This document shows positions 40,380-47,257 of a stretch of DNA of 64,000 bases, piece by piece (within the stretch, counting starts at the first letter, position 1; each line of letters starts with the position of its first letter). The position numbers were made by a program, and so were the translations under genes. The notes beneath the pieces are model-generated. The model did not search any database and was not told where the DNA came from. It was given only the letters and a program-made list of their open reading frames with translations. The stretch lies in assembly GCF_020091585.1 (NCBI RefSeq), contig NZ_CP083582.1:5342536-5406535 (forward strand). The letters run 5' to 3'. This DNA is from Kovacikia minuta CCNUW1. GTDB taxonomy: Bacteria; Cyanobacteriota; Cyanobacteriia; Leptolyngbyales; Leptolyngbyaceae.

Positions 40380-40452
40380 GGGCATGTAGCTCAGTGGATA
40401 GAGCATCAGGTTCCGGTCCTGAGGGTCGGGGGTTCGAATCCCTCCATGCTCG
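40380..40452 (+). tRNA. trnR: tRNA-Arg (CCG anticodon), target of the CAST
   Basis: A 73-nt cloverleaf: acceptor GGGCATG with CATGCTC (one G-T pair), D-arm GCTCAGTGGATAGAGC, anticodon stem-loop TCAGG-TTCCGGT-CCTGA (anticodon CCG, Arg), T-arm GGGTTCGAATCCC, discriminator G. Bases 40397-40413 are identical to the 17-nt homing spacer at 40603-40619, and 40394-40396 (GTG) form the PAM. The transposon end starts 7 bases after the gene, so the tRNA is intact. Confidence 0.96.
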
Positions 40453-40458
40453 TTATGT

Positions 40459-40571
40459 TGTACAGTGACTAATTAAACGTCATCGGGGTCAGATTAATGT
40501 CATTTGGGACAAGTTGGTGTCGTCGAGACAAATTGATGTCGCTTAGTTGCTAGTGACAAATTAATGTCGCC
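40459..40571. repeat. CAST transposon end with five TnsB-site-like repeats
   Basis: The tip TGTACAGTGAC begins at 40459. Five imperfect copies of a 19-20-bp unit follow: 40465-40484 (GTGACTAATTAAACGTCATC), 40487-40504, 40506-40524, 40525-40543 and 40552-40571 (AGTGACAAATTAATGTCGCC). The consensus is G(A/T)GACAAATTAATGTCGTC. Both tip and repeats resemble what I recall of the ShCAST end carrying its homing spacer. TnsB would bind these sites and cut at the tip. The five bases before the tip are TATGT, the candidate target duplication. Confidence 0.88.
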
Positions 40572-40602
40572 AGAATAGGAATTCTTTTTTCCCTATTAGC
40601 AT

Positions 40603-40634
40603 GAACCTGATGCTCTATCCTTTCAACCCGCTTT
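40603..40634 (-). ncRNA. Homing crRNA unit: repeat stub plus 17-nt tRNA spacer
   Basis: On the minus strand: AAAGCGGGTTGAAAG (40634-40620, a shortened repeat end) followed by GATAGAGCATCAGGTTC (40619-40603). The spacer equals 40397-40413 of tRNA-Arg with no mismatch. The stub keeps the GGTTGAAAG end of the main repeats but differs before it. This is the layout known for V-K CAST homing guides, which are separate from the array and shorter than normal spacers. Confidence 0.92.
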
Positions 40635-40667
40635 CTCTAATCTTTTTTTTGCTTAAAGAACCAGTAA

Positions 40668-42240
40668 CTTTAACCTACTCCAATTAGGACAGATGATTGC
40701 GACAACGGCTGTCCCGATCCCCTCCGGCAATAATTTCTGGCTTTCAACCTGCCTCGATTAGGACAGGTGATTGCGACCTAATTCCTCCTTCGGGCGGCGC
40801 TTTCTTACCTCCATTAACTTTCAACCTGCCTTGATTAGGACAGGTGATTGCGACATCCGGTTCAACTGCTCCCAGTAGGAGCAGCAGGCTTTCAACCTGC
40901 CTTGATTAGGACAGGTGATTGCGACAACGATCAAGGGATGGGTGTTGTTCAAGAGTCTCTCTTTCAACCTGCCTTGATTAGGACAGGTGATTGCGACTCG
41001 GGAATTGTCGGTCACCCCTGCCTGTCTCAGGTGCTCGTACTTTCAACCTGCCTTGATTAGGACAGGTGATTGCGACTCAATAAAGCAACTTTAGCCAATT
41101 TGACCTATAGACTTTCAACCTGCCTTGATTAGGACAGGTGATTGCGACTCGGGAATTGTCGGTCACCCCTGCCTGTCTCAGGTGCTCGTACTTTCAACCT
41201 GCCTTGATTAGGACAGGTGATTGCGACTCCACATACCAAAGATGATCATCACAACAAAGAGTGCTTTCAACCTGCCTTGATTAGGACAGGTGATTGCGAC
41301 GAACCTGATAAGCTGTACGAATCCTGTTCTCAAGCTTTCAACCTGCCTTGATTAGGACAGGTGATTGCGACGCCGAAGCCATCTATGCTGCCTTCCCGAG
41401 CATGACTGCCTTTCAACCTGCCTTGATTAGGACAGGTGATTGCGACGGATTGACCGACACTGATTCCCGTCGGTACGCATCTTTCAACCTGCCTTGATTA
41501 GGACAGGTGATTGCGACGAAAAGGAGATGGCGGCATGAGTTTGAAAGATATAACCTTTCAACCTGCCTTGATTAGGACAGGTGATTGCGACACATCGGGC
41601 GGCCCTATCCCCTGAAGCCCTTACCGGGCTTTCAACCTGCCTTGATTAGGACAGGTGATTGCGACAAGGCCCTCTGTAAAGAGGCAGGGATGTCCAATAG
41701 CTTTCAACCTGCCTTGATTAGGACAGGTGATTGCGACATACCCGCGTCAACTCTTTTCGCAGCCCGACAACAGCTTTCAACCTGCCTTGATTAGGACAGG
41801 TGATTGCGACTTTATTCAAAAGTGGAAAGTCACGAAAAAGGGCACTTTCAACCTGCCTTGATTAGGACAGGTGATTGCGACACTATGGGTTGCTGTGCGA
41901 GAGCGGAGAAAGTATTCTTTCAACCTGCCTTGATTAGGACAGGTGATTGCGACAATCCCAGATATTGAGCGGTTCCCATTTCTCCTTGGGCTTTCAACCT
42001 GCCTTGATTAGGACAGGTGATTGCGACTTTGTCCACGCGGGGACTTCGATCAAAAAGCTTGCTTTCAACCTGCCTTGATTAGGACAGGTGATTGCGACCC
42101 TCCATGCCACCGAAAGACTGAGAGCTTTCGCTCTTTCAACCTGCCTTGATTAGGACAGGTGATTGCGACGCGGGAACTGGAGAAAACACTCAGACATCAA
42201 GGCCTTTCAACCTGCCTTGATTAGGACAGGTGATTGCGAC
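40668..42240 (-). CRISPR. CRISPR array, 22 repeat units of 37 bp
   Basis: Repeat on the minus strand runs from GTCGCAATCACCTGTCC to AAGGCAGGTTGAAAG. Twenty-one units at 40741-42240 are identical or differ by one base; a degenerate unit lies at 40668-40703. There are 21 spacers of 34-42 nt. Degeneration on the left puts the leader on the right (42241 onward), next to the tracrRNA, so transcription is leftward. The GGTTGAAAG 3' end is typical of V-K repeats. Spacers 40998-41039 and 41149-41190 are identical. No Cas1, Cas2 or other effector gene is in the window. Confidence 0.96.
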
Positions 42241-42436: not shown

Positions 42437-42716
42437 GAATAGAAGCGGGTTCCCCCTTGGGTGGGGGTGATTCGGTAGCCACTACAGCAGTACATCCGCG
42501 CCCTTGTTGCCGGGAGCGCACCGACGCCATAATTGAAGCAGACTAACGCATCAACTATGACTTAATCTCGTTTAAGAAACCGAAGTCTCTTATCCGACAG
42601 CATCAGGGTGAGCAGCTACCAGGGTCAGAAAGCAGAACGTCTACCGACAGTCAAACTAACCCTCATTTTGCACGAGCGTACACTGCAAGCAGCATACGTC
42701 GCGGCGCTGTTTGAAT
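42437..42716 (-). ncRNA. V-K CAST tracrRNA
   Basis: On the minus strand this stretch closely follows the ShCAST tracrRNA as I know it: it starts near ACAGCGCCGCGACG, then GCTGCTTGCAG, ATGAGGGTTAGTTTGACTG, TCTGACCCTGGTAGCTGC, CACCCTGATGCTG, GGTGCGCTCCCGGCAA, GGGCGCGGATGTACTGCTG, TAGTGGCTACCGAATCACCC and AAGGGGGAACCCGC. A loop between GATGCTG and GGTGCGC is about 50 nt longer than in ShCAST. The anti-repeat AACCCGCTT (42451-42443) can pair with AAGCGGGTT of the homing stub without mismatch. Ends are estimated. Confidence 0.9.
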
Positions 42717-43005: not shown

Positions 43006-43204
43006 AAATGACAGTGACATTGGCGGCACGACATCTACCAACCCTTCTCCAAAAGAAGCGATCGTAAAACGACATCTAAAAATGGCAGTGCTAAACCCAG
43101 GGCTGTGTAAGTCTTCAGTTCCGATCATAGTTGTCGTGACACGTATGATCGGCTGGGATGGCAGGGTTGATAGCTGTCGTCACTCGCCAATGTCACTGTC
43201 ATTT
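43006..43204. mobile_element. 199-bp element with 20-bp inverted ends
   Basis: The ends AAATGACAGTGACATTGGCG (43006-43025) and its exact complement (43185-43204) bound a non-coding stretch. Each arm also holds two copies of ACGACANCTA: 43028-43037 and 43069-43078 on the left, 43128-43137 and 43171-43180 inverted on the right. Paired internal binding-site-like repeats are a mark of Tn7/Tn5053-like ends. No clear target duplication flanks it; it joins truncated cas12k to a truncated transposase, suggesting a deletion at or through it. Confidence 0.75.
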
Positions 43205-43998
43205 CATATCCATTACCAATGCACACTTTTGATATCGCGCATTGTCCAGTATCAGTGTGATCGGGATATCCAACCCCAATGCTGCAAGTTTGTTCAATAA
43301 CTCGCAGACGCTTTGAGCATTAATGTAGGTTTCATTGGTTACAGTAATTAACTCATGGCTGACGGCATTGAGCGCACCCAGGACATTCAAGCGTTGTCGT
43401 CCTGACCCCGTTTTGATGAACAATCTCTCAAAGCACCACAACCAACCCAGATAAGCACCCAAAACAAAATGGGCAGCATCAACAAAGAAAACTGCTCGTT
43501 TCCCTGCTTTTGCCTCCTCCAGTCGAGGCTCTAAGTTTTTTTTACGAATTCTGCTTGTGCCTCTACATCGGCTTTGGCAGGCATCACACCGACTCGACGG
43601 CACCCCATCCCCATCGACTTCAAAAACTGACGCACTTGCTCCCGACTGCGAACAATTCCGGTCAATTCTTCAATCTTAGCCGTCGCTTGAGCCAACGTTT
43701 TCGGAGGATGCTCTCGGAAGTAAGCTTCTAAACTCTCTTGATGCTGCTTCAGTTCGCTCTGCGGTCGATAAAACGTCAGTTCTTTGAGTTGGGCTATCCC
43801 TCCGGTTTGATAATCTTGAAAGTAACTCAGCAAGGTCGGTTTACTCACACGAATCAGTTGAGCAATTTCCCAATGGGGATATCCCTGGCTCTTAAGATAC
43901 AGCGCTTCCATTTTTCGTTGTACACGAGGGTGAGGATGATGAAAGCGTTCGTAATGCAGTTGTTCAATCTCTGTGTCTGTGAAGCTGAGTTGGATCAA
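43199..43998 (-). pseudogene. IS630 family transposase, two-frame and 3'-truncated
   Basis: orfA (43998-43531) has a helix-turn-helix region (VQRKMEALYLKSQGYPHWEI, LIRVSKPTLLSYFQDYQ) and ends in VKKT. orfB (from 43603) continues KKNLEPRLEEAKAGKRAVFF with the DDE motifs VDAAHFVLGAYLGW and LILDNARYQK. The two frames are linked by an A8 run on the minus strand (43536-43543), a classic -1 frameshift site of IS630 elements. The last third, with the catalytic Glu, is missing: the frame runs into the inverted-repeat element at 43204. Confidence 0.85.
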
Positions 43999-45888: not shown

Positions 45889-46180
45889 CTCCTATATCAA
45901 TCTTCCCTTAACCAGAATTTTTCCTCTACGATTGTCGGTTGTGACGCGATCGCTAGCCTCATTCGTTTGAGTCCTTAGAGTTGTGTCCCTATCCTTCCGA
46001 AGGAAGAAAAACTTATCTTCAATGGAATCGGCGATACAGTACAGCTTAAAAAGCCATTCAAACCAGAGTTGGAGGGTGCAAAGATCTAACGCTACGGAAA
46101 AGTTGTCGAGTTCCCTGAAAAGAGGTTAACTGAATCCTTTCGTCATTGAAGAGGACACCTAACTCATCCCGAATAAGAAG
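45889..46180. other. Intergenic with a possible coding scrap
   Basis: 46030-46140 (plus) reads DTVQLKKPFKPELEGAKI, stop, RYGKVVEFPEKR, which looks like a decayed small protein. Otherwise nothing is seen. Confidence 0.35.
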
Positions 46181-47257
46181 TCACTGTACAACAGAGCTGA
46201 ATTGGAGCCGACCGTTGCGGCTGAATTGGTCTGCCAATACGTTCTGATAGACTGCTTCATAGCCATCCACCATAGAATTTAAGCTGAAGCACTGTTCTAC
46301 ATGTTGACGACATGCATGGCGATCGATTTCGTCAACCTTCGCCAACGCTTCGATGCACTCCTCAACTGTATGACAAAGGAAACCAGTTTTGCCATGAGCA
46401 ATGATTTCTGGTGCAGAACCCATCGCCATCGCAATTACGGGCGTTCCACTGACCATTGCTTCGGTCATCACCAGTCCAAAGGGTTCTTGCCAGGTGATGG
46501 GAAAGAGAGTGGCGACGGCACCCCCCATCAAGGCATTCTTTTGAACATGGTTTGCTTCCCCCAAAAATTCAATTTGCTTACTATCAATATGAGGTTTAAT
46601 ATCCTGCTCGTAATAATCCATATCGACGCGATCGATCTTACCTGCGATCTTTAAGTGCCAACCTGTTCGTTTTGCAATCTCAATTGCCAAATGGGTTCCT
46701 TTCTCAGGTGAGATTCGTCCCAGGAAAGCCAGGTAGGGTGGATCGTCGGGTTTTGGATGAAAGACGAAGGCGGTTGGGTCAACGCCGTTGTAAACCGTCG
46801 CCACATAATTTAGCCCCAGATCCATGCGGCGTTGAGAGTGAGAGATACTGATGAAATTTTGGTGTTTATGATTCACATACATTTGCTCTATTAGTGGGGC
46901 AAAAATCCCATGAAGGGTGTGAACTGTTGGGGTTTTTACCAGATTGGCATAGGGCAGGGCTTGAAAATCGATGTGAGAATGGATGATGTCAAATTCGTTT
47001 GCCCGATCGTATACTTTGCTGAGTTGCATCATGCTATGGATATGCGCCTCGTGAGGCGATATTCCTAACTGCCGGAAAGATTTTGGAATGCTGGGTTCCA
47101 ATGCGGCAAGAGTCATTGAATCTGCTGTGGCGAACAGCGTAACGTCATGTCCTCGCTGGACTAACTCATTCGTCAACAGTTCAACAACAAGTTCAGTGCC
47201 ACCATAGGTTAAGGGAGGAACGCGCTCTCCTAAAGGGGCAACTTGGGCAATTCGCAT
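46181..47257 (-). CDS. Family 4 glycosyltransferase
   Basis: A 358-aa GT-B fold glycosyltransferase. GGTELVVELLTNELVQRGH is the N-terminal acceptor domain, FLGRISPEKGTHLAIEIAKR the donor domain, and PITWQEPFGLVMTEAMVSGTPV (shortened here) the EX7E motif. The ATG has AGGAG nine bases upstream. It lies downstream of the signalling island on the same strand, with its own 260-base upstream region containing a copy of the shared operator-like motif. Substrate unknown. Confidence 0.9.
   Translation of the reverse strand: MRIAQVAPLGERVPPLTYGGTELVVELLTNELVQRGHDVTLFATADSMTLAALEPSIPKSFRQLGISPHEAHIHSMMQLSKVYDRANEFDIIHSHIDFQALPYANLVKTPTVHTLHGIFAPLIEQMYVNHKHQNFISISHSQRRMDLGLNYVATVYNGVDPTAFVFHPKPDDPPYLAFLGRISPEKGTHLAIEIAKRTGWHLKIAGKIDRVDMDYYEQDIKPHIDSKQIEFLGEANHVQKNALMGGAVATLFPITWQEPFGLVMTEAMVSGTPVIAMAMGSAPEIIAHGKTGFLCHTVEECIEALAKVDEIDRHACRQHVEQCFSLNSMVDGYEAVYQNVLADQFSRNGRLQFSSVVQ

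Follow-up and report, generated by a model that had tools for sequence, protein, structure and literature searches.

The window analysed here, a 64,000-nt stretch of the Kovacikia minuta CCNUW1 genome, contains the left end of a CRISPR-associated transposon (CAST) of type V-K, next to tRNA-Arg(CCG), and it raises the question of which guide the tracrRNA of such an element fits best: the crRNA that homes the element to its tRNA or the crRNAs of its CRISPR array. In cyanobacterial V-K CASTs, a tRNA-flanked left end is followed by the array and the tracrRNA on one strand and then by cas12k (PMC9938897). The truncated homing repeat, R*, is about 12 nt long and carries a 17-nt anchor spacer, with a GTN PAM and a distance of 46-82 nt from the left end, and the tracrRNA and array are reported to derive from a longer precursor by processing (PMC9938897). 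Truncated homing guides and the categorisation of guides in V-K CASTs are already established. The att-site crRNA accounts for almost every natural V-K insertion, whereas experimental use brings a high level of off-site insertion; a review suggests spacers optimised in nature, or else an unknown host factor, as the cause of this on-site bias (PMC11406308).

Reading inward on the minus strand, R* and its anchor spacer are followed by the array, the tracrRNA and a C-terminal fragment of Cas12k (Table 1). The homing unit combines a truncated R*, a 17-nt anchor spacer that matches its protospacer at 17 of 17 positions, a GTG PAM and a distance of 62 nt from the left end, all as in V-K homing guides, and the tracrRNA adjoins the array and the cas12k remnant, again as in V-K elements. 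The left end is sound and, over 111 nt, 81% identical to the corresponding region of a sister locus, L196. In the array, 20 of the 22 repeats are identical and the R*-proximal one is degenerate; the 37-nt repeat ends in GGTTGAAAG, as is required of a type V-K CAST, the spacers are 34-42 nt long, and a search of the genome gave no further copy of the repeat. One 42-nt spacer (TACGAGCACCTGAGACAGGC...) is present twice (40998-41190), with one other spacer between the copies. The ~197-bp element with inverted ends TGACAGTGACATTGGCG.. lies where the Cas12k fragment meets the IS630 remnant; it is single copy in the genome, and its inverted-repeat ends are 86% alike.

Table 1. Features of the CAST remnant, in window coordinates
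Feature	Position	Strand	Basis or remark
tRNA-Arg(CCG), homing target	40380..40452	+	ARAGORN, Rfam
Protospacer in tRNA-Arg(CCG)	40397-40413, GTG PAM 40394-40396		17/17 match to R* spacer
CAST left end, first bases TGTACAGTGAC	40459..40600	+	62 nt past PAM
Homing unit: R* AAGCGGGTTGAAAG (40620-40633) and 17-nt anchor spacer (40603-40619)	40603..40633	-	
CRISPR array, 22 repeats of 37 nt	40667..42240	-	
Full-length V-K tracrRNA	42437..42716	-	Comparison with V-K tracrRNAs including L196
Cas12k C-terminal fragment, about 80 aa	42758..43000	-	NF038191 positions 570-629, E 9e-23
~197-bp element bounded by terminal inverted repeats, at cas12k break	43007..43203		Direct reading
IS630-family transposase remnant, truncated, two frames	43199..43998	-	NF033545

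The window thus shares with the V-K CASTs ShCAST, AcCAST and AnCAST the tRNA-flanked left end, R*, the 17-nt anchor spacer, the GTN PAM and the strand order. In contrast to these elements, its Cas12k is a C-terminal fragment, tnsB, tnsC and tniQ are absent, and its array is long (22 repeats). About 80 C-terminal residues are what is left of the effector; a profile search of the window gave no match to TniQ or Mu-transpos_C, and no tnsC candidate was found among its listed ORFs. The element is therefore a remnant, and its guide module is an orphan at this locus, Cas12k and the transposase genes being gone. A second TGTACAGTGAC occurs at 46190 (window 46180-46190), where motif and glycosyltransferase stop codon overlap; it is without a flanking target-site duplication, and TnsB-site-like repeats are not evident there. 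This candidate right end was set aside on these grounds; it is possibly the right end, or else a chance occurrence. The tRNA-Arg flank and the glycosyltransferase gene sit on different contigs in the relatives compared, and that comparison gave no position for the right end.

The first-pass annotation had described the tracrRNA as fully retained, and the comparison with L196 bears this out: the tracrRNA (42716-42437, minus strand) is complete in length, and its alignment over 279 nt with that of L196, whose Cas12k is intact, shows 94.6% identity. Its surroundings, that is, the Cas12k fragment, the gap between tracrRNA and array and the left end, are about 81% identical. The extra loop of about 50 nt that had been described in the tracrRNA is also real, and it is present in L124, the closest relative compared. 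Since other V-K tracrRNAs hold unrelated inserts at this site, it is a variable loop and not a peculiarity of the locus. In L124/L197 (Stenomitos frigidus), which appear to be one Stenomitos locus, an insert of ~300 bp lies in the tracrRNA between CTTTCTGACCCTGG and TAGCTGC. A CTTTC in the tracrRNA of the window (42631-42627) is a possible partner of the GAAAG of the repeat. A consensus scan gave neither a sigma-70 promoter at the tracrRNA nor a terminator.

With the transposition genes and all but a fragment of Cas12k gone, present activity at the window locus is unsupported, and it is quite likely that the tracrRNA, array and R* are here fossils without present function, left after a recent decay. 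Besides the survival of only the C-terminus of Cas12k, the absence of a target-site duplication, the doubtful right end and the divergence of the genome's second Cas12k (at 4.21 Mb, close to TniQ and TnsB matches) argue for this. The higher identity of the tracrRNA than of its flanks to L196 and the uniformity of the array repeats argue against it, although both may merely reflect how recent the loss was. A fossil state of this copy would be compatible with the explanation that we prefer for active elements, to which the pairing of the anti-repeat leads.

On the minus strand, the anti-repeat, AACCCGCTT (AACCCGCUU), occupies 42451-42443, directly after a conserved CCCCC..GGGGG hairpin. As had been claimed from a first reading of the sequence, it forms nine of nine Watson-Crick pairs with AAGCGGGTT of R* (minus strand; plus-strand span 40625-40633), while against the array repeat (..AAGGCAGGTT) four pairs are followed by a C-A mismatch at position 5, two further pairs, a U-G wobble at position 8 and a last pair. 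The interaction predicted with ViennaRNA is -14.2 kcal/mol for R* vs -7.7 kcal/mol for the array repeat when the last 14 nt are taken, and -18.4 vs -2.2 kcal/mol for 37-nt segments. Equal or better pairing of the array repeat, which would have spoken against the claim, was thus seen at neither length, and these models support the homing stub as the better predicted partner of the tracrRNA.

L196 belongs to the same family as the host genome, has a tRNA-Gly beside its array and encodes an intact Cas12k (646-aa frame), to which the fragment in the window is 82% identical. Its anti-repeat is identical to that of the window and its array repeat has the same mismatch. Its R*, AAGTGGGTT, is its own, unlike that of the window, and pairs over nine positions with one wobble; on 14 nt, the predicted interaction is -12.3 for R* vs -7.7 for the array repeat. 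Since L196 shows the bias, it exists in an element that keeps its effector, and it was probably already present in the window element before decay. The pairing of R* is weaker (-7.2) in L197/L124.

To place these two loci among their relatives, we turn to a survey of Cas12k loci gathered from whole genomes, named genome contigs and viral contigs, the viral collection contributing three Cas12k loci only. Neither the anti-repeat nor R* was picked by pairing: the hairpin upstream served to place the anti-repeat, and a GTN-PAM protospacer beyond the array to place R*. Both R* and array were available for 70 loci, the window among them; L072, whose picked R* was the array repeat itself, was left out of the statistics. 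Duplex energy favoured R* at 50 of these loci and the array repeat at 12, with 8 ties, and uninterrupted pairing averaged 8.2 for R* vs 5.7 for the array. The difference is concentrated at position 6 of the anti-repeat, which has a Watson-Crick partner in 86% of R* vs 21% of arrays, the mismatch of the window lying one place earlier than this usual position, at position 5. At position 6, covariation with the anti-repeat is seen for R* (z 5.9) and none for the array (z 0.8). Five loci combine U3 in the anti-repeat with A3 in R* and G3 in the array; here R* has kept in step with the tracrRNA, its A3 pairing with U3, and the array has not. On 37-nt segments, stronger binding by R* is predicted at 66 of the 70 loci, and on trimmed 14-nt ends the two medians, -11.2 and -13.3, differ moderately. 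At L040, L058 and L070, the array repeat is the better fit on 37 nt as well, and the 14-nt duplex bias is reversed in favour of the array at L097, L110 and L121. In the latter three, the array repeat GGGAGGGTT is perfect to the anti-repeat, and the position-6 mismatch is found in R*.

The survey loci are related, and their Cas12k proteins were clustered at 85%, 75% and 65% identity. On 37 nt, R* is the better partner in 31 of the 34 clusters formed at 85% identity and in 20 of 23 at 75% (sign p 0.0005); at 65%, 11 clusters are left, which divide 9 to 2 (p 0.065). Position 6 favours R* by 19 to 2 among the 85% clusters and by 11 to 2 (p 0.02) among those at 75%. The 14-nt duplex energy taken alone gives 15 to 8 in the 75% clusters (n=23), which is not significant (sign p 0.21), and parsimony on the Cas12k tree gives only a few independent matched changes. 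Judged from the sequences compared, a pairing bias toward R* is widespread in type V-K CASTs.

The larger part of the predicted difference seems to lie outside the mismatch. The full 37-nt array repeat is predicted to fold on itself, burying the bases that are due to meet the anti-repeat, and R* lacks the 5' arm. Array repeats throughout the survey are strongly self-complementary (median -14.8 kcal/mol). In chimeras computed for 69 survey loci, the array repeat had a median interaction of 0.0 and R* one of -11.8, with -10.1 for the array core in R* context and -3.8 for the R* core in array context. In these models, the predicted difference stems mostly from the missing 5' arm, with the core bases adding to it, and a hairpin that hides the anti-repeat site is a larger predicted effect than a single mismatch. 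The weight of this argument depends on where the 5' ends of the mature crRNAs lie. The earlier proposal that the homing crRNA is the preferred partner therefore stands as regards its better predicted pairing, but its emphasis on a single mismatch gives way to the hairpin. From the energy difference, we infer that the R* guide would be loaded preferentially and that homing would follow.

Taken together, we put at roughly 0.58 the probability of the following reading: the window holds the guide module of a decayed V-K CAST that once homed to tRNA-Arg; its anti-repeat is matched to R* and not to the array, an arrangement widespread among V-K elements; and R* is preferred through docking on the tracrRNA. 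The full array repeat would be closed by its own complementarity, its 3' arm pairing with its 5' arm, and once trimmed it would still be mismatched, usually at anti-repeat position 6 (position 5 in the window). R*, having lost the 5' arm and carrying the matching base, could be docked by the tracrRNA directly. Array guides would need trimming or opening and would then bind less tightly, with a mismatch, so that in an active element the homing crRNA may be the preferred or first partner whenever the pool of tracrRNA and Cas12k is limiting. Against this, array guides work in ShCAST despite a mismatch. The wider form of the proposal falls somewhat short of even odds and is offered tentatively: V-K CASTs would sort their guides via the tracrRNA, with the anti-repeat tuned to R* and the arrays held back by their self-hairpin and a mismatch around positions 5-6, such that homing to tRNA sites, which are safe ones, would be the default and array-guided jumps secondary.

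The same pattern could also arise with no regulatory role at all, which we consider rather unlikely. Under this explanation, borrowed adaptation and processing machinery holds the array repeats palindromic, the unconstrained R* co-evolves with the tracrRNA, and trimmed guides load equally; array repeats could not follow the anti-repeat because the spacer-acquisition and processing machinery of the host needs the palindrome. V-K elements are without adaptation genes of their own and are thought to borrow them (PMC11406308), which fits this explanation, as do the strong self-complementarity of the array repeats and the moderate difference between trimmed ends. However, it gives no reason for the mismatch that tracrRNAs retain to the array guides, which outnumber the homing guide: covariation at position 6 is present for R* and absent for the array.

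Use of the orphan module in trans by another effector would require a second Cas12k. PF18516 (RuvC_1) detected no Cas12k in the genome, whereas the NF038191 profile, which detects Cas12k, gave one other copy, divergent and at 4.21 Mb. It belongs to a second V-K-like CAST (G000:C1 4.2105-4.2435 Mb; L003, L004, L188) with a 584-aa open Cas12k frame. A TniQ match and TnsB-type matches lie nearby at 4.23-4.24 Mb, its repeats likewise end in GTTGAAAG, and its candidate stub, GGGAAGTT, fits its own anti-repeat better than its own array repeat does; a local protospacer for the spacer of this stub was not found. The open frame, the nearby TniQ and TnsB-type matches, the shared repeat end and the fit of the stub could be taken in favour of service in trans, but the second locus is equipped with a tracrRNA and an array of its own, the repeat of that array is very unlike the one in the window, and the end motif TGTACAGTGAC was not found there, which makes such service very improbable. 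Least probable is a chance likeness of two short sequences that share a conserved GGGTT core: in the window, the match outside the core comes down to just four bases (a chance of 1 in 256 that all four match), but dozens of other loci show this relation too, matched pairs of anti-repeat and R* scoring 7.88 of 9 Watson-Crick positions vs 6.52 when permuted (z 9.5, a test in which relatedness remains).

Type I-F3 CASTs, which have atypical repeats, likewise set one crRNA apart from those of the array: it is dedicated to homing, and its repeat has diverged (PMC11406308). There the distinction acts via the Cascade effector and TniQ (PMC11406308), whereas here it is proposed to act via tracrRNA complementarity and self-folding of the repeat. 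No statement of a rule linking anti-repeat and R* was found in the literature searched, a search outside which the likeliest primary papers lie, and the word tracrRNA is absent from a review on homing guides and their categorisation; the pairing rule is thus possibly an unreported feature of V-K CASTs. If R*-type repeats load better, the rule may serve as a guide to sgRNA design for Cas12k tools. As a base-level rule that ties together tracrRNA, R* and array repeat, it bears on how V-K elements choose their tRNA home site over the targets of the array and, if true, would mean that these elements favour one guide over others through tracrRNA pairing.
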